Virus record (IMG/VR): IMGVR_UViG_3300009788_000152
Span: 1-45,829 of that record
DNA: 45,829 nucleotides
Origin: a virus
Direction: 5' to 3' (one strand)
Within the stretch, counting starts at the first letter, position 1; every line of letters begins with the position of its first letter. The position numbers and the translations under genes were made by a program. Below, in pieces: positions 24,631 to 37,150 of the stretch. Below the pieces are notes generated by a model, which did not search any database, was not told where the DNA came from, and saw only the letters and a list, made by a program, of their open reading frames with translations.

Positions 24631-25806
24631 ATGACCCCCAAAACTAATCCCAAAAAAACAACCGCGCTGATTACAGTGGAATCCTTCGATGAGAGGTATC
24701 CCGACGACAAGTTCAATCAGCTCCTGCCATCCAAAACAATAATTGAGAGTGTGCAGAGATTCAGCAAGCTGTCGGTGGAAACTGTCAAGATCAATCCCGA
24801 TCCGCAGCAGCAGGAAGTCTTCTCATTGGGGAAGACCAAGATCGTGGACGCGAAGGGTAATGACAAATGGGTAGATAAACTCTGCCCCACTAAGACTGCT
24901 CTCGATAAGCTCTGGTTCGCAATGGGAATCGAATCGGTGCCGGAGAAATCTGGCCGGGTAGACAACCGCAGCGACAAGGACTACTTCGAGTACGTGATTG
25001 TGGTTCGGATCACGAAACCCGATGGCAGCAAAATGGAAGTAGCTGCCACAAAAGGAATCGACGTACAAACCTACGTCGAGGAAATGTTCGAGAACCTGTC
25101 CGCTACCCATCTGGCTGGCAACCTGGGAGAATGGCGGACACCGACGAGTGGCCAGAGCAAGAAAAAGGTTTTCCACAAATTCACCGATGTCGAGGCCGAC
25201 AGGCATATTGCCAAAAAGACCCGCCAGCGGGAGATCGAAATGCGGAAGCATGGCCTGCAACTGGCGGAGACTGGAGCGAAGAATCGGCTGGTGCGCCAGA
25301 TTACCAACCTGAAGCCGTGGTACACAGCGGATGAGCTGAAGAATCCCTTTGTAGTGGCGCGGATTGACAGGAACGTGGAGGACTTAGCAGCCGATCCCCA
25401 GACTCGCGCCGACATCTACCGGCAAGGATCACATGCACGTGATCTGGCATATCCCCGTGAGAGGGATGTCCAAACTACTCCCCTCCCGCATATTCAGGAG
25501 GCGGAGTTCGCGGAGGCTGATAATGGGGAAGAGGCCGAGCAGCCAGAGCCTGCGGCGGAAGCTGATCCTAGCGATGAGCCGAAACTCCTGCGAAAGGAAT
25601 TCGAGGAGCAGTGTAGGGAGATGGACATCACTGCCCGGTTCCGGCAGATGGAACACTTGATCGAAAAGCGCCAGATCAAGGCGGGCGAGACCGGAGAATT
25701 GATGGTACTCGATCACTCCGACTGGGAGAAGAAGAGCGACAAAGATCAGTTGAAAAACCTGATGTGGGGCTACGACCAACCCAAACCTAACGGCTTGCCA
25801 TACTAA
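24631..25806 (+). CDS. Conserved phage DNA-metabolism protein (recombination/repair associated)
   Basis: 391 residues, ATG 24631 behind GGAGATGATGCA. The order 'DDKFNQLLPSKTIIESVQRFS', 'VKINPDPQQQEVFSLG', 'CPTKTALDKLWFAMGIE', then 'AETGAKNRLVRQITNLKPWYT' and 'LKNPFVVARIDRNVED' matches a family I know from phage replication/recombination clusters. The second half of that pattern is shared with single-strand annealing type proteins. The C-terminal ~110 residues are acidic and probably flexible. Exact biochemistry is not established. It heads the operon containing SbcDC, RuvC and polymerase-X-like genes. Confidence 0.55.
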   Translation: MTPKTNPKKTTALITVESFDERYPDDKFNQLLPSKTIIESVQRFSKLSVETVKINPDPQQQEVFSLGKTKIVDAKGNDKWVDKLCPTKTALDKLWFAMGIESVPEKSGRVDNRSDKDYFEYVIVVRITKPDGSKMEVAATKGIDVQTYVEEMFENLSATHLAGNLGEWRTPTSGQSKKKVFHKFTDVEADRHIAKKTRQREIEMRKHGLQLAETGAKNRLVRQITNLKPWYTADELKNPFVVARIDRNVEDLAADPQTRADIYRQGSHARDLAYPRERDVQTTPLPHIQEAEFAEADNGEEAEQPEPAAEADPSDEPKLLRKEFEEQCREMDITARFRQMEHLIEKRQIKAGETGELMVLDHSDWEKKSDKDQLKNLMWGYDQPKPNGLPY

Positions 25807-25808
25807 GT

Positions 25809-26024
25809 ATGAAGACCGTGGAGGATAGCACGAGAACCAGAGACCGTTTAATAAGAAACGGAGTATGTCCCGGTTGTGGCAATAAGCTAACAACCTTTGT
25901 GCTGCCTAAAGAGTATCTGGAGGCACATGAATGCCCTCCGTGCGAGATTCTATACTATTTAGACGGTCCAAACGATTGGTTCCTGTCGGGGCGGATGTCA
26001 ACTAATAATCAAGAGGGAAATTGA
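25809..26024 (+). CDS. Small zinc-ribbon protein
   Basis: 71 residues, ATG 25809 two bases after the previous stop. 'CPGCGNKLTTF' and 'HECPPCEILYY' supply two CxxC knuckles, a zinc ribbon that could bind nucleic acid or protein. The rest is unstructured. It is squeezed between two DNA-metabolism genes. Function unknown. Confidence 0.55.
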   Translation: MKTVEDSTRTRDRLIRNGVCPGCGNKLTTFVLPKEYLEAHECPPCEILYYLDGPNDWFLSGRMSTNNQEGN

Positions 26025-26027
26025 TCC

Positions 26028-29000
26028 ATGCGAATACTACACACAGCTGACTGGCATCATTGCGATGCCCTGGGCGACGTAACCGGCCCGGCGATGGACT
26101 TCATCGTACAACAGGCTACTGAGATCGAACCTGATGCAATCGTGATTGCAGGTGATCTCATTGTGAAGCGGGGCTTCATCACACCGCAGGAGTCACTGGT
26201 GATCCGCGAAACGGTCCTTAGATTGGCCGAGATTGCCCCTGTACTGGCGATTCCTGGCAATCACGACATCTCTAACAGGTATGACCGAGTTGATGCCGTC
26301 ACGGGGCTGCTGGGGCGGCTGAAAGCCGAAACTCCAACACTCCATGACCGGCTATTCATCAGTATCAGTCCGGGTTGTATCCACATTCCGACCGAAGCAC
26401 TGCGGGGTGTCCGCTTCTTCACCCTGCCACATCCATCGAAGTATCTATATCTGAGCAGGGAAGATGAAACCAAGCCCAGCGAGATAGACTCGAAGTTGAC
26501 CGAACTCATGCGCCGGATCGCGGAAGAATTTGCCACGGAATGTATTGACCTCCGGGCGACTGGGATCAAGCCGATCCTGGTGGGGCATGGCACGGTGGCC
26601 GGTGGCGTGGCCGACAGTGAAAAGGTCCTCACGCAGGAGAACGATCTGGCCATCGACCGGCACTGGCTGGCAGGTCATTTCGACGCAATCATGTATGGCC
26701 ACCTGCATAAGCGCCAGAGCGTGGGAGAGGTATTCTACAGCGGAGCCATAGCTCCACTGACCTTTGGGCAGGAGAAGATGGTACCCAGTATCGAGCTCTG
26801 GGACCTTGTGACAGGGCAGCACGTGCCAATCGAGATACCGGTCGCCCATCAGATGCTGACAGTGGAAATCACCAAGGATCAGTTTGCCGACAAGATGGAT
26901 GATCCGGTGGACGTGGTTTTCAATGCACTGAAGCCAATAGCGATCAAGGATGCCAAGGTCCGGGTCCGAGTGGAAATCCATCGGGAGCGCCGGAGTTTAT
27001 TGAACCGGGAGATGATAGAGGACTGGCTGACTAAGCAGGGAGTCCACAGCCATAAGTTGGTGATTGATACGGTGGACCCGGTTCGCATCCGGGCTGATGA
27101 GATGGATACCGATCTGGATATGGAAGGAATGCTCAGGGTCTGGTCCGAACTGGACGAGGACCGGGCGGCCAGCCTCCCGTTGATGAACGAAATCAACCGG
27201 GGTGTGTCAGCGGCCATCCCCCCGGATGTCCTGCATCAGCTTCAAGGCACTAACTATACGATCCAGCGCATCAAGGCGACGAATTTCAAGCCGCTAATCG
27301 ACGTGGACATCAACTTCGATGACCTGGGCAGTATCATCTGTATCATCGGGCGCAACCATGTGGGTAAATCTCAGTTGGCGGAGATACCGAGCTTCGCATT
27401 TTGGAAGAAACTGCGGAAGGGGACCCAGCTTGTCCATGCTATCCGCCGTGGCTGCAAGGAGACAGACGTATCGATCTGGTTCAAAGCCCAGCAGCCGGGT
27501 GGCCAGATGGAAAATTTCCGGGTGAGACGATCTCTCAAGCTGGGCACCGACGGCAATGCCAGTGGCACGGTAGTCCTGAGCAAGCAAGTTGGCGAACAGT
27601 GGCTGCCTATTAACGAAGGTGATGCCAAGGAAACTCAGGTCTCCATCGAAAAAATGGTGGGCAGCTACAATATGTACCTGTCTACCCGGTACGGTTCCCA
27701 GCAGGGGATAGATCACCTATGCAGCCTGACGGCAGCGGAGATGAAAGATACCCTGCAAGAGGCGATGAACTTCACAGCGTTTGACCTGCGGAAGAAGGCC
27801 GCTGAGGAGCAGTTGAGGATACTCCGGGGTGACTACGAAAACGTCACCATGAAGATGGAGAGGCTGGAAGAGGAACTGAAGCAGGAGAACCACATAAAGG
27901 ATTCACTGAAACAGCTCGAAGGGACCAAATCCCTGAAATACACGGAGATGGAGGACCTGCGGAAACAGCGGGATGAAATCCAGCAAAAGATCACCAATTC
28001 TCAGGCCCTGGTCCAGCAGCGTACCGATCTGAATCTCAAAAGCGCCAACCTCCGGGAGAGTATCGAGGCTGAGGAAGGCACGATCCGGGAGATGACCGCA
28101 GCCCTGGAGAAAAAGGATCAGGTCACCGCCGGTATCCAACGGGTAGCAGCCCTCGAATCTCAGATCGAGAGCAAACAGATTGAGCATGACCGGCAATCCG
28201 ATGAGATTGCGACCATAATGAATGAACGTGAAGAAAAGGTCAATCGGATACACCATCTTCAGGGTGACTCATCGACGCACAAGACGGTCATCGATGCCTG
28301 TAAGAACACCATCGAAAATGAGACGTTCAACCACAATGCCAAAATCGACCAGCAAACCGAGAGGATCAGGACCGCCGAGCGGGCCGCAGAGTTGACGAAG
28401 GAAGTTCCCTGCGATGGAACGGACCTTCAGAGCCAGTGCAAGTTGCTGGAGGATGCTAACGCGGCCTCGGCCACGATAGCTACCCTGGAGGAAGAGCTGG
28501 CCCAGCTGGAAGCCAACCCCCCAGATCACGCGGGGAACGAGGCCGCCGTCAAGCGTCAAGAGAAAAGCAAGGCCACGGTTGATGCTGAGATCGAACTTTT
28601 GGCTCCCCAGATAGAAAAAATAAAAACGGATGTCGATACTAAGCGAAGCCAGTTCGAGGCAACCAAATCAGCGTTGAACACTGTGAAGGCTGACTTGCAA
28701 ACAGAGAGGGGCCACGACTGGCCGAGGGTGCAGGAAAAGGTGGCGGTGGCGGATACCAATCTGAGGAATGCTGAGACCAACCGGGACCGGCTTAGTACGG
28801 AACGCCTTGAAGTGACTCAGGAGTTGGAGAAACTGGGAGAGTCGGTGGATACCATTGATCTTCAAATGCAGTCGGACAGCCTCAACACCAATCTCACCAA
28901 CATGCAGAACCAATATGATGAAAACGTCCGCCAGATCGGTGTGATGCAGCAGAACCTGGAGCGCATGGATACGGTAAAGGCCGCCCTGGAAGGGTTGAAG

Positions 29001-29552
29001 CAAGTAAACAGCTCGGGGCTGGCCAAGATCAATGCCTTTGTCCACTATATCGCAGCAGTCAGCCGGGATGGTATCCCATACCTGTTAATGGAAAAGGCCC
29101 TGCCGCGCTTTGCAGAGTACTCCAACGAATTCCTATGCGTTGATGAAGGTTTCGATAGTGCGCTCCGGGTAAAAGTCGATCCGGTGAAGGATACCCAGAG
29201 CGGGAAGGAAAAAGATGAGGTCGTGATCATGTTCACGGATGATCGTGGCACTCACCCCCTGGGGGAAGCTTCAGGATTCCAGCGCGTGGCCATTGGCTAT
29301 TCGCTGCGGGCGGGGATGGCCAAGATACAGGCCGAGTCAACCGGAGTCATCATCAACCACTGCATATTCGATGAAGGCTGGGGAGCCTTCGACGAGACGA
29401 ACCTGCTGCTGGCCAAGCGAATGATCCAGAAGCTGGGAGACGAGTTTGGCAAGTTCATCTACATTACCCATGTCCCGGTATTGCAGGAAGTGTGCGATAC
29501 CACTATCCATGTTCAATCAGCCGACGGCGGAGCGACAGTAGAAATAGTATGA
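26028..29552 (+). CDS. SbcD-SbcC (Mre11-Rad50) fusion: nuclease and SMC-type ATPase in one chain
   Basis: 1174 residues, ATG 26028 three bases after the previous stop. Residues 1-~390 form an SbcD/Mre11 phosphoesterase with all motifs: D8/H10 ('ADWHHCD'), D43 ('AGDL'), 77-80 GNHD, H187 ('VGHG') and 224-227 GHLH. Residues ~405-1174 form SbcC/Rad50: Walker A GRNHVGKS (441-448), long coiled coils around a hook with C795 and C804 ('VPCDGTDLQSQC'), signature-like 'GEASGFQR' (~1079-1086) and Walker B 'CIFDE' (1112-1116), then a His-loop 'YITHV'. In bacteria and in T4 (gp47/gp46) these are separate proteins. No stop or start interrupts the join. The complex processes DNA ends for recombination. Confidence 0.9.
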   Translation: MRILHTADWHHCDALGDVTGPAMDFIVQQATEIEPDAIVIAGDLIVKRGFITPQESLVIRETVLRLAEIAPVLAIPGNHDISNRYDRVDAVTGLLGRLKAETPTLHDRLFISISPGCIHIPTEALRGVRFFTLPHPSKYLYLSREDETKPSEIDSKLTELMRRIAEEFATECIDLRATGIKPILVGHGTVAGGVADSEKVLTQENDLAIDRHWLAGHFDAIMYGHLHKRQSVGEVFYSGAIAPLTFGQEKMVPSIELWDLVTGQHVPIEIPVAHQMLTVEITKDQFADKMDDPVDVVFNALKPIAIKDAKVRVRVEIHRERRSLLNREMIEDWLTKQGVHSHKLVIDTVDPVRIRADEMDTDLDMEGMLRVWSELDEDRAASLPLMNEINRGVSAAIPPDVLHQLQGTNYTIQRIKATNFKPLIDVDINFDDLGSIICIIGRNHVGKSQLAEIPSFAFWKKLRKGTQLVHAIRRGCKETDVSIWFKAQQPGGQMENFRVRRSLKLGTDGNASGTVVLSKQVGEQWLPINEGDAKETQVSIEKMVGSYNMYLSTRYGSQQGIDHLCSLTAAEMKDTLQEAMNFTAFDLRKKAAEEQLRILRGDYENVTMKMERLEEELKQENHIKDSLKQLEGTKSLKYTEMEDLRKQRDEIQQKITNSQALVQQRTDLNLKSANLRESIEAEEGTIREMTAALEKKDQVTAGIQRVAALESQIESKQIEHDRQSDEIATIMNEREEKVNRIHHLQGDSSTHKTVIDACKNTIENETFNHNAKIDQQTERIRTAERAAELTKEVPCDGTDLQSQCKLLEDANAASATIATLEEELAQLEANPPDHAGNEAAVKRQEKSKATVDAEIELLAPQIEKIKTDVDTKRSQFEATKSALNTVKADLQTERGHDWPRVQEKVAVADTNLRNAETNRDRLSTERLEVTQELEKLGESVDTIDLQMQSDSLNTNLTNMQNQYDENVRQIGVMQQNLERMDTVKAALEGLKQVNSSGLAKINAFVHYIAAVSRDGIPYLLMEKALPRFAEYSNEFLCVDEGFDSALRVKVDPVKDTQSGKEKDEVVIMFTDDRGTHPLGEASGFQRVAIGYSLRAGMAKIQAESTGVIINHCIFDEGWGAFDETNLLLAKRMIQKLGDEFGKFIYITHVPVLQEVCDTTIHVQSADGGATVEIV

Positions 29553-29568
29553 GGGGCTGTCGTAAACA

Positions 29569-29594
29569 GGGGGGTGGGCTAACGTCCGCCCCCC
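29569..29594 (+). promoter_or_regulatory. GC-rich hairpin between the SbcDC fusion and the replication gene
   Basis: GGGGGGTGGGC and GTCCGCCCCCC can form 11 pairs, two of them G-U, around the loop TAAC. It ends 13 bases before the next ATG and close to its AGGGAG ribosome site. No T run follows. It might tune translation or protect the upstream message end. Confidence 0.45.
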
Positions 29595-29607
29595 ACAGGG
29601 AGAATCT

Positions 29608-30573
29608 ATGACCAAGGATGAATCCTTCCCCCTGAAAATCTGGAGTGGATTATTCAAGGAAAAGCATTGGAGGGCGATGGGCAGCGCTATCTGGCTGTTT
29701 GGAATGCTGCTCGATAAGGTCACAAAAGAGGGTGGTACCAATGGTAAAGGCTATGTCCTGGGCGGAGCGCCTATCACATATGAGACCTTCGCAAAAGATA
29801 TAGCATTCTCGGAACGCCAATATTATCGGTACATCGATAAGCTCCGCAAAGCGGGATATATCCACACCCACAACAGCCATCGGGGGCTTCAAATAGTTAT
29901 CAACAAATCCAAGAAGTTCAAGCGTAGGGGTGACAAAGTTGACAGCCCCCCCCCGACGGAAACGGCAGGACCCCCTGACAAAAGTGGCAGTGCTGTGCTG
30001 CCAGATATGGCAGCTCCTCTTATAGACACTAAAGAAGACTATACAGAGATAGAGGTTCCTCCCCAGCAGTATATGCAGATTTGGAAAATGATTCACGGGA
30101 TTTTCAAGTTACCCGAAGGGTCCTATGGAGCCTACAAAAGCGACATCATTGAAACCATCCAGCGCCTGGGCCTCAAGATCACCAAGAAAGCCTGCGAAGT
30201 ATTCATTGAGGCCGTCGATGATCATCCACCAAACGGGAAGGTCAACTCGATTTCACAATTCCTGCATTGGAAGAAGATCGACGAATATGTAACCATGATC
30301 CCCCCGGAGAAAAAGATGAGATATTATGCCTGCTTGGTCTGTGAGCGGGTGATCCAGCTCGAAGACCGGGGGAATATTGATCAGGTGCTCAGTCTACCAT
30401 CGGGTAAATGTTCCGGGCCGGTCGATAAACCGGAAAAGGCGCATGAGGAGAAGCCCTATGTCGAGGTTACAGCGACGGTGGTTGATTGCAAGAACAAAGG
30501 CATGACTGATCCCCAGATCAGGGCTGTGATTGATAAGCGCATCAAAACAATTAGAAAAGAGGGGGGGTCCTAA
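29608..30573 (+). CDS. Winged-helix replication initiation-type protein
   Basis: 321 residues, ATG 29608 behind AGGGAGAATCT. The N-terminal ~110 residues look like a phage replication O-protein/helix-turn-helix domain: 'SAIWLFGMLLDKVTKEGG', 'ITYETFAKDIAFSERQYYRYIDKLRKAGYIHT'. A linker is encoded over a run of nine C. A second helical domain (~150-230) follows, and a tail with a 'CLVCERVIQLEDRG' Cys pair and basic helix. Such proteins bind the origin and load helicase; no helicase is encoded in this window. It overlaps the next gene by one base. Confidence 0.6.
   Translation: MTKDESFPLKIWSGLFKEKHWRAMGSAIWLFGMLLDKVTKEGGTNGKGYVLGGAPITYETFAKDIAFSERQYYRYIDKLRKAGYIHTHNSHRGLQIVINKSKKFKRRGDKVDSPPPTETAGPPDKSGSAVLPDMAAPLIDTKEDYTEIEVPPQQYMQIWKMIHGIFKLPEGSYGAYKSDIIETIQRLGLKITKKACEVFIEAVDDHPPNGKVNSISQFLHWKKIDEYVTMIPPEKKMRYYACLVCERVIQLEDRGNIDQVLSLPSGKCSGPVDKPEKAHEEKPYVEVTATVVDCKNKGMTDPQIRAVIDKRIKTIRKEGGS
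29946..29954 (+). repeat. Run of nine C inside the replication gene
   Basis: A mononucleotide tract codes for consecutive prolines in the linker between the winged helix and the second domain. A gain or loss of one C would truncate the protein after its DNA-binding half. Confidence 0.85.
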
Positions 30574-31205
30574 TGCGGATTCTGGCGATAGACTCATCGA
30601 TAAGGAATATCGGCTGGGCCATCCTGGAGACGGATGCCGATATTGATCATGGCGAAGGGCTACTGGGATCGGGAACACTCCGTACCAAGGAAGTAAACGA
30701 TCCAGATTTAGTTTATGAGATTCGGGACCTTCTGAAGAATTTAATCAAACTGAATAATCAGGATTTCCCCGAGATCGCTCCACTCGTTGATGTGGACCCT
30801 GCGGCAGCACCTTACAGTAAATTGAATGCTGAGGCCCTGGCGGGGCTACGGATCAGGTTTGCAGTGATCGAGAAAGCTGAAGGGTTCACCTACAGTCGCA
30901 GCACAAAAGGCGGTGGCAGGCTTCCTGGTAAAACGCTGAATGCAAAAGAGATGCAGCGGAACCATTTTGCGGTGGGGATCATCGCGGCCACTCTGGCTGA
31001 GATGGTGGAGACTATTCAATTTGTAACCCCCAAGGAATGGAAGGGCAGCACGTCGAAGGCCACCACCCGGCTGGTCGTGAACAACACCTTCAGCCTGAAG
31101 CTCCTCGACTACCATAATGACCAAGCGGATGCCATTGCAATCGGCTGCTGGTGGATCAGGCGTTGGACACTGGATCAGAAAATAGCGGCTCAGGAAAATG
31201 AGTAG
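30573..31205 (+). CDS. RuvC-like Holliday junction resolvase
   Basis: 210 residues; ATG 30573 overlaps the previous stop (TAATG). RNase H-fold signatures are present: 'RILAIDSSIRNIGWAIL' with catalytic D7 in the first strand, 'RFAVIEKAEGF' with an acidic second strand, and 'DYHNDQADAIAIGCWW' with the closing Asp pair before the last helix. RuvC cuts four-way junctions formed in recombination. Its place next to an end-processing nuclease supports branch resolution before packaging. Slightly longer than E. coli RuvC. Confidence 0.75.
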   Translation: MRILAIDSSIRNIGWAILETDADIDHGEGLLGSGTLRTKEVNDPDLVYEIRDLLKNLIKLNNQDFPEIAPLVDVDPAAAPYSKLNAEALAGLRIRFAVIEKAEGFTYSRSTKGGGRLPGKTLNAKEMQRNHFAVGIIAATLAEMVETIQFVTPKEWKGSTSKATTRLVVNNTFSLKLLDYHNDQADAIAIGCWWIRRWTLDQKIAAQENE

Positions 31206-31470
31206 TTCCCCCCCAATGCCGATACTAACCATACCAGTGCCGAATAGGACACGGGAATTCCTTACCGGACTGATAGAGCAATGGGGCAGAGAATACCCGG
31301 AAGGTATTGGGGATCATGCGATGGCTGAGATCATGGAAGCGGTAGTGACGTGCATAGACAAAACACTCGAAGACCTTGATTATGGTAGGTTTATGATGCT
31401 GTTTCAAATCATAGAGGAGCGCTATCACAACCGGAAACGGAGAGAGAGATTATCCGGGGGGCCGGTATGA
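31198..31470 (+). CDS. Hypothetical protein
   Basis: 90 residues; ATG 31198 overlaps the resolvase end by eight bases, with GGA just upstream. Predicted helical ('TREFLTGLIEQWGREYPEG', 'MAEIMEAVVTCIDKTLEDL') with a basic C-terminus. No family recognised. The next gene starts on its stop codon. Confidence 0.5.
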   Translation: MSSSPPMPILTIPVPNRTREFLTGLIEQWGREYPEGIGDHAMAEIMEAVVTCIDKTLEDLDYGRFMMLFQIIEERYHNRKRRERLSGGPV

Positions 31471-31832
31471 AGATAATCAGGGAACATTCAGTCCCAGTCA
31501 AACGGCCCGAGACACTGCCGGTGAAAGATGACATGCCGTGGTGCGAGGATCACGAAGAATATTACGAAGTCTGCATGTGCCCCAAACCGTACTCTACACC
31601 AGAGGAAGATGGCTGGCTGGTGGAGCAGACCCCATCCGGCCCGGTGGGATTCCCTACGGAAGAGCTCTACAAGGAACTATCGATGTGGATTCAGCGCCGG
31701 GGGCAATACCTGATTTGCGCCAGATGCAACGGGAGAATATCGTTTCCCGAGGGCCACGTGATTTCCGAGAGCGAGTCACAGGACATGGTGGAAGCATTTT
31801 TCGATATACATACACAGTGCGAAGGGAGCTGA
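31467..31832 (+). CDS. Hypothetical Cys/His-containing protein
   Basis: 121 residues; ATG 31467 overlaps the previous stop (ATGA). A first Cys/His cluster ('PWCEDHEEYYEVCMCP') and a later 'LICARCNGRISFPEGH' CxxC suggest one or two zinc sites. The pattern resembles small DNA-associated phage proteins, but I recognise no family. Confidence 0.5.
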   Translation: MKIIREHSVPVKRPETLPVKDDMPWCEDHEEYYEVCMCPKPYSTPEEDGWLVEQTPSGPVGFPTEELYKELSMWIQRRGQYLICARCNGRISFPEGHVISESESQDMVEAFFDIHTQCEGS

Positions 31833-31833
31833 T

Positions 31834-32355
31834 ATGCCAAGGGGATTTGACGAATACGACGGTCATACTGTTAATGCCGAATCGCGGCTGAGGTGGCTGG
31901 TGCTGGAACTGATGGCCCACACCAATCCCGAGAATCCCATGCTCGCCAGCAAGATCAAGGAAAAAACTACCTGGGGAGGGAAGTGGGACCCCGCCAAGGA
32001 AGCTATGACTGGTGCGCGGAAGGGATTGTCGGGGCAGGAGGTCCGGGCAATGGTGAATTATCTCCGCCGGGAATGGAAGTATCCCATCGGCTCCGGGGTC
32101 AAGGGCTATTTCTGGTGCAAGTCGAAGGAAGCACTACAGCCGACAATGGATCACCTGGAGGACAGGAGAAATGCCATTGAACACGCACTCGATGGTCTCA
32201 AGGGAGCCACAATCGATGTCGATCCCAACACAATTTTGGATCAGGCCACTCCCGGCCAGCAAGAATTCCTGAGAGAGTTCACGACCTTGGGTGATTTGGC
32301 AGCGATAGAACTGAGCCATGCCCCTGTATATCAACACGGGCTGCCGGGAGGATGA
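31834..32355 (+). CDS. Winged-helix phage protein
   Basis: 173 residues, ATG 31834 one base after the previous stop. Residues ~60-110 carry the phage winged-helix pattern 'LSGQEVRAMVNYLRREWKYPI' followed by 'GVKGYFWCKSKEALQPTMDHL', i.e. recognition helix, wing and a long helix. An N-terminal helix bundle precedes it. This combination is common next to phage replication genes; DNA binding is inferred, the site is unknown. Confidence 0.55.
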   Translation: MPRGFDEYDGHTVNAESRLRWLVLELMAHTNPENPMLASKIKEKTTWGGKWDPAKEAMTGARKGLSGQEVRAMVNYLRREWKYPIGSGVKGYFWCKSKEALQPTMDHLEDRRNAIEHALDGLKGATIDVDPNTILDQATPGQQEFLREFTTLGDLAAIELSHAPVYQHGLPGG

Positions 32356-32356
32356 C

Positions 32357-32920
32357 ATGAAAGAGAGAGTTGATTTGCACGTAGCCCAGCACGTGGCTGG
32401 GAAATATATCGACCTGCTGAAGCCGTTCTGCGACAGGATTCAGGTAGCAGGATCGGTGCGGCGCAAGCGCCCACGGGTAGGCGATATTGAGATTGTCTGC
32501 ATACCGAAAACGGTAGTGACGAAAGACGGTATGTTCCACGAACAGACCGTGCGAGCGCCGGGATTCGCAAAGGCCCTCAGCGATGCAAATGTCAATCTCC
32601 TGAAGGGCGATCCCCGGACGGGGAAATATACCCAGATGATGACCACGGAGGGGATTCAGATTGATCTATTCATGCCCAACAAGGATAATTGGGGCCGTAT
32701 CTATATGATCCGCACTGGCTCGTCGGAGTTCTCCCAGTTCATGGCAGGGCGCTGGGTGAAGTGGGGATATAAAGCCATCGATGGCGTACTATGGGAAGTG
32801 GATGAGTTTAAGAATCCCTTGAGGATTGTGACCACCCCAACGGAAAAAAGCATCTTCGAGCTCCTGTCCCTGAAGGTGGTTCCCCCGCACAAGCGGAACC
32901 AGAAGGGGCTACCAAGATGA
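32357..32920 (+). CDS. DNA polymerase X-like nucleotidyltransferase
   Basis: 187 residues from ATG 32357 (GGGAGG six bases upstream; an upstream in-frame ATG at 32318 lacks this). 'IQVAGSVRRKRPRVGDIEIV' is the pol-beta type GS...D-x-E motif (D43, E45) and 'GIQIDLFMP' brings the third acidic residue. 'RTGSSEFSQFMAGRWVKWGY' and 'DGVLWEV' match the thumb of family X polymerases, and 'TPTEKSIFELLSLKVVPP' the usual end. The helix-hairpin-helix 8 kDa domain is absent. It probably fills short gaps during end joining or recombination. Confidence 0.75.
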   Translation: MKERVDLHVAQHVAGKYIDLLKPFCDRIQVAGSVRRKRPRVGDIEIVCIPKTVVTKDGMFHEQTVRAPGFAKALSDANVNLLKGDPRTGKYTQMMTTEGIQIDLFMPNKDNWGRIYMIRTGSSEFSQFMAGRWVKWGYKAIDGVLWEVDEFKNPLRIVTTPTEKSIFELLSLKVVPPHKRNQKGLPR

Positions 32921-33618
32921 AGATCACAAAAGCTCATATCCGCCGGGAGGGACACTATCCCAGCGAGGACCCCTTCGATTATACGGCAGAGATAGAATAC
33001 AGTACCTACGCGAAATCGTTCTATATCCGAATCCCCGAAAAGATCAAGGGATTCAAGTGCCACGACGAAATAGATCAGGATCGGCTGGTGGGCAGGGTGA
33101 AACTGCGGAGCGCTGGATTCTATGGCTATATCGGGGACACTGAAAAGGAAGTAATTGCCAAGGCACGGGAACACCTTTCGCTATTTGCTGCGGAGTCTCC
33201 AGACACCCGGAAAGTGATCCTGTACCAATTCAGATACGGGGTCAAAGATGTCCGGCGAAGTGGTGGCAGCGCAGCAAGTCACTTGGCATCCGAAAATGCA
33301 GCATCGCTGACCATCGATTATATCGTATGCTATGAGACTATCCACGGCAGGGGAAAAACCTACGAGCGCCGGATCGAAAAGGGCGGCAAGATCGAGCGGC
33401 AGTGCATCTCCAACCTGACCTTCAAGGGATATGGCCTCGACCGGGACCCGGACTACTTCGTGATGGAATGGACCGAAGAGCGGGAGGAATACTTTGACAA
33501 TCTGGTGAGCCAGATGGAAACCCTGATAGGGCGGATCAATGAATACGTGACCGATGAAACGGCATTCACTGCCCTGGTGGATAGTGGCGGCCAGAACTTA
33601 CTAACTGAAGGGGAATGA
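32917..33618 (+). CDS. Hypothetical protein in the recombination operon
   Basis: 233 residues; ATG 32917 overlaps the previous stop (ATGA). Mixed alpha/beta with 'AEIEYSTYAKSFYIRIPEKIKG', 'ILYQFRYGVKDVRRS' and a long C-terminal helix ('YFDNLVSQMETLIGRINEYV'). No catalytic motif is recognised. It is followed one base later by an acidic zinc-ribbon gene, and both may form a unit with the Toprim gene. Confidence 0.45.
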   Translation: MKITKAHIRREGHYPSEDPFDYTAEIEYSTYAKSFYIRIPEKIKGFKCHDEIDQDRLVGRVKLRSAGFYGYIGDTEKEVIAKAREHLSLFAAESPDTRKVILYQFRYGVKDVRRSGGSAASHLASENAASLTIDYIVCYETIHGRGKTYERRIEKGGKIERQCISNLTFKGYGLDRDPDYFVMEWTEEREEYFDNLVSQMETLIGRINEYVTDETAFTALVDSGGQNLLTEGE

Positions 33619-33619
33619 C

Positions 33620-34054
33620 ATGAGATGTCCAGACTGTGCAATATTTGTCTCCTATGGAGGGGACTTAGAGCCGGAGATCGAATCTGAGGAAATCAACGAG
33701 GATGAGTTGACGGGGAGTGTCCGGGTAGTCCTGGATTGCGCCGAATGCGGAGGGGAGCTCAAGGAATCATCGATGGAATACGAGGTCCAGATCGAGCATG
33801 AATGCTCCGACGCCAACGAGGAAGATTCCGACGCCGACGGCGAGGACCAATTCGAGATTCATTCCACCGCGACCAGTTTCACCGAGCGTCGGCAGACCAA
33901 GGATCGGCATGGTAAGCCGATCACCAACTACCGGTACCAGCGGACCTACTACGGGGCCGAGATCACCACGACCATCAAATGCACCCGCTGCGAGGAAGAG
34001 TTCGACGTGGAGACCACTGTCGAAGAGCAGGCCAGCAGCTTCGAGGAAATGTGA
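33620..34054 (+). CDS. Acidic zinc-ribbon protein, conserved in phages
   Basis: 144 residues, ATG 33620 one base after the previous stop. Three CxxC pairs are visible: 'MRCPDCAIFVSYGG', 'LDCAECGGELKESS' and 'IKCTRCEEEFDVETTV'. The middle is very acidic ('EEDSDADGEDQ'). The opening followed by 'GSVRVVLDCAECG' matches a small family I have seen beside Toprim or recombination genes in phages. Role unknown; metal binding is likely. Confidence 0.6.
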   Translation: MRCPDCAIFVSYGGDLEPEIESEEINEDELTGSVRVVLDCAECGGELKESSMEYEVQIEHECSDANEEDSDADGEDQFEIHSTATSFTERRQTKDRHGKPITNYRYQRTYYGAEITTTIKCTRCEEEFDVETTVEEQASSFEEM

Positions 34055-35037
34055 TGCCAACGATCCCGTACATAGAGAAAGATTTCGGGCAGACTGCGCT
34101 CTACATAATCGAAGAGGCGGTCAAAATCCTGAATGAGTATCAGAGGCAGGGATTCACCATGACCCTGCGGCAGCTCTACTATCAGTTTGTGGCCCGCGAC
34201 CTATTCCCGGAGAATCGCCGGTGGAGCCGGGTGCCAAACACGAAAAGGTGGATCAAGGACCCCAACGGGACCAAGAATGCTGATCCGAATTACAAATGGA
34301 TGGGCGGGATCGTGAATGATGCCCGGCTGGCTGGCTACATCGACTGGAAAAGGATGGAAGACGTTACCCGGAAACTCGAAGAGGAAAACCACTGGAGCAA
34401 CCCCCGCGAGTTTATGGACACGGTGTACCAGTATCACCTAAACCGCTGGAAGGAACAGCAGTACCGGCCTGAGATATGGATCGAGAAAGACGCACTGATA
34501 GGCGTGATCGAACCGATCTGCAAAAGGCTGGACGTGCCATATTTCTCCTGCCGGGGCTATAACTCTCAATCCGCGATGTGGGAAGCTGCCCAGAGGCTGA
34601 TCGAGCATATTCACGACGATCACGCTCCCTATATTTTCCACATGGGAGACCATGACCCATCAGGGATCGATATGAGCCACGACATCCAAAACCGACTGAG
34701 CCTATTCCTGGAATATGAGGGCTTTGAGATGGAAGCGGATTGGCACTTCAAGCGGATCGCGCTGAGCATGGATCAGATCAATGCGCTGAATCCACCTTCG
34801 GACCCGGCCAAGCTGAGCGATAGCCGGGGGAAAGAATACATCAAAAAATATGGCGACAGGTCATGGGAACTGGATGCCCTATCCCCCGCGACTCTGGCCG
34901 AGCTGATCCAGAATCATGTGGAAGAGATCACCGATGACAACGTGCTATTTGAGGTCGAGGAGCGGGAAGCGAAGCACAAGGAAATCATGCAGGCCGCTGT
35001 CGATGGAATGGATTTTAACGACGAGGAGAAAGAGTAA
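34054..35037 (+). CDS. Toprim protein resembling topoisomerase VI subunit A / Spo11
   Basis: 327 residues; ATG 34054 overlaps the previous stop by one base and is preferred to an upstream in-frame start inside the zinc-ribbon gene. The N-terminal winged-helix part has 'TMTLRQLYYQFVARDLFPEN', with an R-x-x-Y-Y pattern (Y42, Y43) like the catalytic Tyr site of Spo11/TopoVIA. A Toprim domain follows: E144 in 'WIEKDAL' and D199/D201 in 'GDHDPSGIDMS'. 'FSCRGYNSQSAMW' and 'NPAKLSDSRGKEYI' are family-conserved. No partner B (GHKL ATPase) subunit is seen. It may cut or nick DNA, with Tyr chemistry unproven. Confidence 0.7.
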   Translation: MPTIPYIEKDFGQTALYIIEEAVKILNEYQRQGFTMTLRQLYYQFVARDLFPENRRWSRVPNTKRWIKDPNGTKNADPNYKWMGGIVNDARLAGYIDWKRMEDVTRKLEEENHWSNPREFMDTVYQYHLNRWKEQQYRPEIWIEKDALIGVIEPICKRLDVPYFSCRGYNSQSAMWEAAQRLIEHIHDDHAPYIFHMGDHDPSGIDMSHDIQNRLSLFLEYEGFEMEADWHFKRIALSMDQINALNPPSDPAKLSDSRGKEYIKKYGDRSWELDALSPATLAELIQNHVEEITDDNVLFEVEEREAKHKEIMQAAVDGMDFNDEEKE

Positions 35038-35186
35038 TGGCAAAATCACGACCGATACCACCAAGACCAGACCCCTACAAGTATTCAAGCAATGAGAGGA
35101 ATATGCGGGCGCAGAACCGATATTTCTGGCCGCCACTATGGCTAAAAATCGGGTGGTGGCTCAAAGGATATGCGTGGATGACATGA
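35037..35186 (+). CDS. Small Trp-rich protein
   Basis: 49 residues from ATG 35037, overlapping the Toprim gene stop (TAATG). Proline-rich start ('RPIPPRPDPYKYSS') and an aromatic end with six Trp ('FWPPLWLKIGWWLKGYAW'), possibly membrane-interacting. The next gene starts on its stop. No family recognised. Confidence 0.45.
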   Translation: MAKSRPIPPRPDPYKYSSNERNMRAQNRYFWPPLWLKIGWWLKGYAWMT

Positions 35187-35350
35187 GAGCTACCCAGCTC
35201 ATAGAATACCTCAATATGAAAAAAGCGCCCACAGCGGATGAAGAGCTGACGCTGACCCATCTCACCCTCAGGGAGCGCCTGAAGGCAGTGCGTAAAAAAC
35301 ACCGCCAAAAACTAAAGGCCGAGAAACCGAAAGGACTATTTGACAAATGA
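35183..35350 (+). CDS. Small basic protein
   Basis: 55 residues from ATG 35183, overlapping the previous stop (ATGA); an upstream in-frame ATG (35138) lies inside the previous gene. Helical and Lys/Arg-rich at the end ('RERLKAVRKKHRQKLKAEK'). Nucleic-acid contact is possible. Unknown function. Confidence 0.5.
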   Translation: MRATQLIEYLNMKKAPTADEELTLTHLTLRERLKAVRKKHRQKLKAEKPKGLFDK

Positions 35351-35766
35351 AAGCAATCACCCTCTGGCAGCCGTGGGCCTCCCTGGTGGCGCTGAGGATC
35401 AAGCGCTGGGAGACCCGGAACTGGTGGACCAACTACCGGGGACCACTGGCGATCCATGCAGCCGGGAAGAAATCATTCCACAGCCACTATATGAATGCTG
35501 CCCAGACCAGCATCACGGCCCCGGACCTGAAGATCGAGGGCCTACCGTTCGGGGCAATCGTGGCGGTATGCGACCTCACGGATTGCATCGAGATGACCCA
35601 CCAGATGATCATGGAGATGACCGGGCATGAGCGGATGTTGGGCGACTGGTTTGAGGGGCGCTACGCCTGGAAACTGGAGAATGTCCGGGCGCTCGATAAG
35701 CCGATAGTGGTCCTTGGTAAACAGGGCCTATGGTCACTACCACCGTCAATAGAGGAGCAGTTATGA
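35347..35766 (+). CDS. ASCH-domain protein
   Basis: 139 residues; ATG 35347 overlaps the previous stop (ATGA). 'ITLWQPWASLVALRIKRWETRNW' followed by 'YRGPLAIHAAGK' is the hallmark of the ASCH fold, related to the PUA domain and found in RNA-binding and base-modifying proteins (E. coli YqfB removes acetyl groups from N4-acetylcytidine). 'GAIVAVCDLTDCIEM' and a C-terminal 'YAWKLENVRALDKPI' complete the domain. The chain is essentially one domain. A role with modified nucleosides is only inferred. Confidence 0.75.
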   Translation: MKAITLWQPWASLVALRIKRWETRNWWTNYRGPLAIHAAGKKSFHSHYMNAAQTSITAPDLKIEGLPFGAIVAVCDLTDCIEMTHQMIMEMTGHERMLGDWFEGRYAWKLENVRALDKPIVVLGKQGLWSLPPSIEEQL

Positions 35767-36426: not shown

Positions 36427-36743
36427 ACAACGGCGTAGAATTGGTGAACGGGCACCAGCACCGAAAGAATGCCGCCCCAGAGGAAAAGACCTTCGCCTTT
36501 TTCTGCCGCCGGGTATGTAAGCAATGCAACAGGACTCCGGGCGATTCCACTACCCAGCTATTAGAGCAATGTCCAGTTATCCGGTTGGACGCCTACCTAC
36601 AGCTGAGGAAGGAAAACAGCACGGCTAAGGTAGCAGTGCTCATGGGACCATATATCACGGAAACAATCACCCCCGAGCTGGTTGCCTGCGTGAGCTACGT
36701 CCCCGCCAATGATCTGAGGAAACCGAAGGGAGATACTGGATGA
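36423..36743 (+). CDS. Cys-motif protein, copy 2 of a tandem pair
   Basis: 106 residues from ATG 36423; the frame is open further upstream, but that part lies inside copy 1. 'FFCRRVCKQCNRTPGDST', 'QCPVIRLDAYLQL' and 'ITETITPELVACVSY' align with the copy 1 blocks in order. The spacer between the Cys motif and 'CPVIR' is a few residues longer. It keeps the same putative metal ligands. Function unknown. Confidence 0.55.
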   Translation: MNNGVELVNGHQHRKNAAPEEKTFAFFCRRVCKQCNRTPGDSTTQLLEQCPVIRLDAYLQLRKENSTAKVAVLMGPYITETITPELVACVSYVPANDLRKPKGDTG

Positions 36744-37150
36744 CCGTAGGCGAATACACAATCGCGTCCCACGACGCCTGTGCTGACTGCGGCATCTGCT
36801 GTCAGGTGTTCTTCAAGGGGAAAAATACCAATGGCTCAGCAAATCTAACACCCCGGTCAAAACGGTGGGTCGAGCAGGAGATGGAGCCACTGACCCCTGA
36901 GCAGGCCATTGCACTGGACCTGCTGGCCTTCACTCCAGAGCAGATAATGGAATATACCGCCGAAGGCTATGAGCTGGCGCGGTGTATCCTACTTGACCCG
37001 GAAACCAAGAGATGCACAGACTATGAAAATCGACCGTCGGGGTGCGTGGATTATCCAACCTACTGCACAGTGAAGCAGCACAAGCATTGCCCCCTATACG
37101 ATCTGATAATTGCCGAACGAGAAGCAGAGGAGCCGGTGACCAGTGAGTGA
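36740..37150 (+). CDS. YkgJ-type Cys-cluster protein
   Basis: 136 residues; ATG 36740 overlaps the previous stop (ATGA). 'CADCGICCQVFF' (C14, C17, C20, C21) followed by 'CILLDPETKRCTDYENRPSGC' and 'DYPTYC' is the CxxCGxCC ... C ... C-x-x-Y-x-x-RP-x-x-C pattern of the YkgJ family, described as zinc- or iron-chelating. These domains accompany oxidoreductase or modification systems in bacteria. The substrate is unknown. The next gene overlaps by eight bases. Confidence 0.7.
   Translation: MTVGEYTIASHDACADCGICCQVFFKGKNTNGSANLTPRSKRWVEQEMEPLTPEQAIALDLLAFTPEQIMEYTAEGYELARCILLDPETKRCTDYENRPSGCVDYPTYCTVKQHKHCPLYDLIIAEREAEEPVTSE

Follow-up and report, generated by a model that had tools for sequence, protein, structure and literature searches.

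The Mre11-Rad50 complex is a dimer of dimers, M2R2, comprising two Mre11 and two Rad50 subunits (PMC7260605). In T4 (gp47-gp46) and in bacteria (SbcD-SbcC), the nuclease and the ATPase are two chains, with a CXXC hook in the ATPase, and among jumbo phages SbcC and SbcD were found to be practically universal in a 2021 survey (PMC7824862). The two activities can also reside in one chain. 'Mre11/Rad50 fusion proteins' were described by Yoshida, Claverie and Ogata in 2011 in a survey of 13 proteins, among them Mimivirus R555 and proteins of Bacillus phage 0305phi8-36, a C. kluyveri plasmid, a Deferribacter megaplasmid, and several eukaryotes; such fusions were abundant in viral metagenomes and were concluded to have arisen repeatedly, and the hook was not discussed (PMC3175470).

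Here, we analyzed a stretch of viral DNA of 45,829 nucleotides (IMG/VR record IMGVR_UViG_3300009788_000152; hereafter the window), in which positions 26028-29552 (+) form a single open reading frame with an ATG start, 1174 codons, and no internal stops. The encoded protein of 1174 aa comprises a complete SbcD/Mre11-type nuclease followed by a complete SbcC/Rad50-type ATPase. It matches the PHROGs families SbcD (phrog_100) at residues 1-373 (E 4e-18) and SbcC (phrog_77) at residues 408-1172 (E 3e-42), as well as the Pfam Metallophos (calcineurin-like phosphoesterase) family at residues 1-228 (E 1e-12), and a search of PDB sequences returned Staphylococcus SbcD, Thermotoga Mre11, and archaeal Rad50. 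Scores against the curated NCBIfam models fell below their cut-offs, both for SbcD (TIGR00619; 55.9 bits against 77.65) and for SbcC/Rad50 (best 63.4 bits against 700). The initial annotation had described an SbcD-SbcC fusion in one uninterrupted frame, with the domains ordered as in T4 gp47-gp46; the reading frame and the matches of both halves in PHROGs and Pfam bear this out, the order agrees on comparison, and every motif position that had been given proved correct.

The nuclease motifs are D8-W-H10, G42-D43, GNHD at residues 77-80, H187, and GHLH at residues 224-227. Those of the ATPase are a Walker A motif (GRNHVGKS, residues 441-448), Q558 of the Q-loop, the signature ASGFQ (residues 1081-1085), a Walker B motif ending in D1115-E1116, and H1148 of the H-switch. 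In an alignment of 26 fused chains that includes the window protein, the nuclease metal ligands D8/H10, D43, N78, H79, H187, H225, and H227 are invariant in all 26 rows, as are the Walker A Gly/Lys/Ser, the signature Ser-Gly, the Walker B Asp-Glu, and H1148. A close relative is encoded on a viral contig of 101.5 kb (L002), where a fused chain of 1173 aa is in frame and shares 61% protein identity with the window protein end to end.

An AlphaFold2 model built from the 26-row alignment had a mean pLDDT of 77 and was confident over most of both domains, whereas with two sequences the pLDDT was 42. In the 26-row model, the domains are judged reliable and the relative placement of heads and arms unreliable (pTM 0.43). 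The calcineurin-like nuclease domain (residues 1-250; 26028-26777, +) is identified by its motifs and by a match of the modelled nuclease part to the core of Mre11, with an rmsd of 3.9 and a TM-score of 0.80 normalised by target length; E. coli SbcD is a further match of this part. It is followed by a capping-domain-like region at residues of about 251-350 (26778-27077, +), assigned from the modelled secondary structure and the match to SbcD/Mre11 crystal structures, with a putative boundary. The next segment (27078-27254, +) is a helical tail resembling the Rad50-binding region of Mre11, with modelled helices at residues 365-373, 377-396, and 399-406 and a joint at 407-409, and it aligns with the SbcD C-terminus of a related phage locus in which the two genes are split (L013). 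In the model, the SbcD part finishes its final helix at residue 406, and the ATPase opens with a strand from residue 410. Were the Rad50-binding helices to stop at 396, the bridge to the ATPase would be about 13 residues long, which is close to the linker of 9-12 residues estimated by Yoshida et al. (PMC3175470). The ATPase N-lobe (residues 410-580; 27255-27767, +) includes Walker A (27348-27371) and Q558 and is defined by alignment and model, as is the C-lobe (29073-29549, +) with ASGFQ (29268-29282), D1115-E1116, and H1148. Between the lobes, the model places an outgoing coiled-coil arm (residues 583-788; 27774-28391, +) and a returning arm (residues 808-1011; 28449-29060, +), the modelled helices of the latter spanning 805-1011. 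The modelled ATPase and arms match Rad50 of the Chaetomium MRN complex.

The features by which fusions were recognized in 2011 are also found in the window protein: similarity to SbcD (COG0420-type) and SbcC (COG0419-type) with the nuclease first; the motifs DXH, GD, and GNHD and the later metal-binding His; ATPase segments on both sides of the coiled coil; and, as judged from the model, a region between nuclease and ATPase (residues of about 251-406) of the length of a capping plus helix-loop-helix region. As described in the paper (PMC3175470), the 2011 set thus shares with the window protein an N-terminal Mre11-like nuclease, a helical region, and a Rad50-like ATPase, along with an occurrence in viruses and mobile DNA. 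Mimivirus R555 has replacements of nuclease residues, whereas those of the window protein are all intact, and the CX8C hook is a feature of the window protein.

Single-chain proteins proved to be common among viral contigs. Once identical chains had been removed, two scans left 69 different chains of 1,100 aa or more, each in a single frame that starts with the SbcD motif, and all 26 of the aligned fused chains match the SbcD PHROG as well as that of SbcC; a scan with the SbcC half alone returned known relatives only. Two named phages also encode single-chain proteins that resemble the window protein in this respect but have CXXC hooks. In Microcystis phage Mel-JY01 (PP395634.1, L134:2283-5483), WWT39521.1 is a full single-chain SbcD-SbcC of 1066 aa. 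It is annotated just as an 'AAA domain containing protein' and, besides its CXXC hook, has a variant P-loop, APNASGKS. In Listeria phage LMTA-57 (L216:2495-5524), YP_009793404.1 is a single-chain SbcD-SbcC of 1009 aa with a TTG start, annotated as a recombination exonuclease. This chain may reflect a recent joining of frames or a sequencing slip, as its SbcC part starts at an internal Met. In a Foldseek search of viral models, the top-ranked matches were long proteins, of 866-1417 aa, whose alignments spanned more than 1,200 columns, including those of Tupanvirus, Harvfovirus, Yasminevirus, and Tenacibaculum phages pT24 and PTm1; their fused state is inferred from these lengths and alignment spans. 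Among genome contigs, a scan with the 26-row alignment returned mostly split SbcD, with about 10 of 80 loci fused, while a scan with a 2-row alignment gave no matches. Fused genome-contig copies were found in Clostridia-type MAGs and Blautia sp. An249, and one of 11 loci called fused, L199, lacked a Walker A match and is possibly not a true fusion. Collectively, the 2011 description, the 69 viral chains, the named phages, and the viral-model matches led us to reject the uniqueness of the fusion. The novelty of architecture that the initial annotation implied therefore does not hold.

The phylogenetic position of the window protein was evaluated with 30 rows covering the nuclease and both ATPase lobes (866 columns), in a tree that contains long branches. 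The architecture and the catalytic residues are shared with a large clade of fused chains of about 1240-1290 aa from viral contigs and Clostridia-type genomes (L006-L048, L136-L148, and others), in which a wide hook (CX7C) is likewise conserved. However, its members are only ~20% identical to the window protein, and the window and L002 proteins fall outside this main fused clade (support 100/100). They group instead with the split pairs L013, L041, L047, and that of Leptospira phage LE1 (94/88), each encoded by two genes. The tree requires three changes of state between fused and split. The placement of the window lineage near split pairs points to a likely separate fusion event there, but a single origin of fusion was not rejected by the AU test (p 0.055-0.058). 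L013 further shares with the window protein the hook context EVPC...QC.LL (CX9C in L013) and the SbcD tail IP.DVL, while no hook Cys pair was found in a scan of the LE1 protein. The end of the split L013 SbcD (IPADVLGLAGDVERSVVS) aligns where the window protein has IPPDVLHQLQGTNYTIQ, which has the look expected if two such genes had been joined directly.

At the apex of the coiled coil (28401-28448, +), the alignment places C795 (28410-28412) and C804 (28437-28439) in a CX8C arrangement, and the canonical CXXC zinc hook of Rad50 is absent from this position. Between residues 576 and 1015, just four columns of the alignment are invariant in all 26 rows, namely C795, C804, L807, and A810, and these sit in the middle of a poorly conserved coiled coil. 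Of the 69 fused chains, 66 have a CX7C spacing; the two with CX8C make up the window lineage, and the remaining one has CX6C. Split phage SbcC proteins also have wide spacings (CX7C in a Moorella phage, CX9C in L013, CX5C in L041), and CXXC occurs in T4, Moonbeam, a Staphylococcus phage, and the fused Mel-JY01 protein. Since wide spacing is found in split SbcC and CXXC in a fused chain, hook width and fusion vary independently, and we rejected the idea that fusion widened the hook. Thus, the CX8C hook to which the initial annotation drew attention is real and conserved but is not a consequence of the fusion.

The genes that surround the fusion are mostly shared with L002, where the order is likewise the phrog_13782 gene, the fusion, the helicase loader, the RuvC-like gene, and Mini-A. 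Upstream lies a conserved gene of 391 aa without known function (phrog_13782; 24631-25806, +; 62% identical in L002). The pattern of its product loosely resembles phage single-strand annealing proteins, an impression for which no match was found. A 71-aa open reading frame with a weak zinc-ribbon-like match (25809-26024, +) ends just before the fusion start, and in L002 the gap between the corresponding neighbours is too short for it. Downstream, PHROGs matches identify a DnaD-like helicase loader/replication initiation protein (29608-30573, +; 49% identical in L002) and a RuvC-like Holliday-junction resolvase (30573-31205, +; 55%). Farther on, positions 32318-32920 (+) encode a 200-aa protein with a DNA polymerase beta thumb (E 5e-6), a weak palm match, and the motif GSVRRKRPRVGDIEIV; it is apparently a minimal PolX-like nucleotidyltransferase, is 60% identical in L002, and had no match in the phage collection. 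A protein with a CxxCxxCC putative zinc-/iron-chelating domain (Pfam PF03692, E 3e-10) is encoded at 36740-37150 (+). The window also encodes tail sheath, baseplate, and tail lysin proteins, indicating a contractile-tailed phage.

Taken together, the window protein is most likely a dimeric, ATP-gated, single-chain nuclease of the Mre11/Rad50 type that processes DNA ends in replication-recombination. In the scheme that we infer, two chains would dimerise through their nuclease and ATPase heads into a machine with two nucleases and two ATPases, and the single gene would guarantee equal numbers of both subunits. The heads would close over the nuclease site on binding ATP, and the site would become accessible upon hydrolysis, such that DNA ends and hairpins are cut, while the coiled-coil arms would meet at the cysteine-pair apex with its wider than usual spacing. 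During infection, its task would be that of T4 gp46/gp47, namely the trimming of DNA ends in end repair and in replication that depends on recombination, and the helicase loader and Holliday-junction resolvase encoded next to it would act alongside it.

This reading presupposes that the frame is genuine and not the product of a sequencing or assembly error that joined adjacent sbcD and sbcC genes. Such an error would be in keeping with the split neighbouring genes usual in bacteria and T4 and with the split loci of certain related phages (L013, L041), and LMTA-57, with an internal Met ahead of its SbcC part, is possibly an instance of it. In the window, however, the same joint recurs in a second viral contig (L001) that is identical to positions 25397-35549 over 10,153 bp. 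L001 may derive from the same virus population and so rules out a one-off join without being deep evidence. The decisive observation is that the joint is in frame and conserved in L002 at 61% identity (AASLPLMNEINRGVSAAIPPDVLHQLQGTNYTIQRIK in the window against AASLPLMKEINQAVAANIPPDVLHQLQGVNYKLQRIK), so that conservation extends to the junction itself, and the gene order is kept there as well. Moreover, codon-position GC is uniform throughout the frame and continuous across the joint, and dozens of further fused chains exist. On these grounds we rejected an artefact, which is exceedingly improbable, and the concern raised in the initial annotation that the frame might be an assembly join or that homologs might all be split is answered. 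The same annotation proposed that a fixed 1:1 chain would change the usual M2R2 assembly. This does not follow, because M2R2 contains two Mre11 and two Rad50 subunits and is already 1:1 (PMC7260605), and a dimerising 1:1 fusion keeps that stoichiometry. An altered assembly, in which single chains act as monomers or are connected by their arms only in place of an M2R2 head dimer, could be favoured by the short joint after the last helix (407-409), which could limit head motion, but no direct support was found for it. We regard it as very unlikely, given that the order of nuclease then ATPase and the linker length were argued to suit the known complex (PMC3175470) and that the Walker and signature motifs of the ATPase, whose action spans the dimer, are invariant.

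As for the role of a dimeric chain, host-DNA degradation would fit the sequence equally well as resection. T4 gp46/gp47 are annotated as needed for both recombination and host-DNA degradation, and some cellular fused copies lie on plasmids or beside transposases in genomes that have normal split pairs elsewhere (PMC3175470), as might be expected if the single chain were mainly a weapon that degrades host or competing DNA and not a recombination-replication nuclease. However, the helicase loader and the RuvC-like resolvase adjoin the fusion in both the window and L002, favouring replication-recombination, and the two roles are not mutually exclusive. A predominant role as a weapon is therefore rather unlikely. 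A further lead concerned a Top6A/Spo11-like 'Mini-A' protein (33979-35037, +; 62% identical in L002), which carries the motifs TLRQLYYQF, including the 5Y-CAP-type TLRQLYY, and IEKDAL/GDHDPSG, of which GDHDPSG is of the Toprim type. Mini-A proteins are truncated Top6A homologs known from phages (PMC7614492), and Spo11 is a member of the Topo VI family (PMC8185306); relatives of this one occur in 75 phage records, and the gene is also present in L007. The Mini-A and fusion genes are codirectional and lie 4.4 kb apart, both in the window and in L002. Conceivably, Mini-A might cut DNA and stay attached to the end until the single-chain SbcD-SbcC clips it off, as in meiotic Spo11 with Mre11-Rad50; if true, the phage would couple break formation to break processing. 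This seems very improbable. Only one of 15 other SbcD-carrying contigs searched whole contained Mini-A, and no annotated SbcCD was seen within the stretches viewed of four Mini-A phages, and we rejected a systematic Mini-A/SbcCD partnership on this basis.

The single-chain SbcD-SbcC architecture of the window protein is confirmed as genuine, but it was already known, and the protein adds one well-supported phage lineage to those that carry it. Its apex raises a small question of hook chemistry, namely that of the conserved CX7-8C pair in fused and in some split phage proteins. One polypeptide with a strict 1:1 ratio of nuclease to ATPase would be convenient for biochemistry and cryo-EM. More broadly, these findings indicate that single-chain Mre11/Rad50 enzymes are far more widespread in viruses than the 2011 survey of 13 proteins showed.
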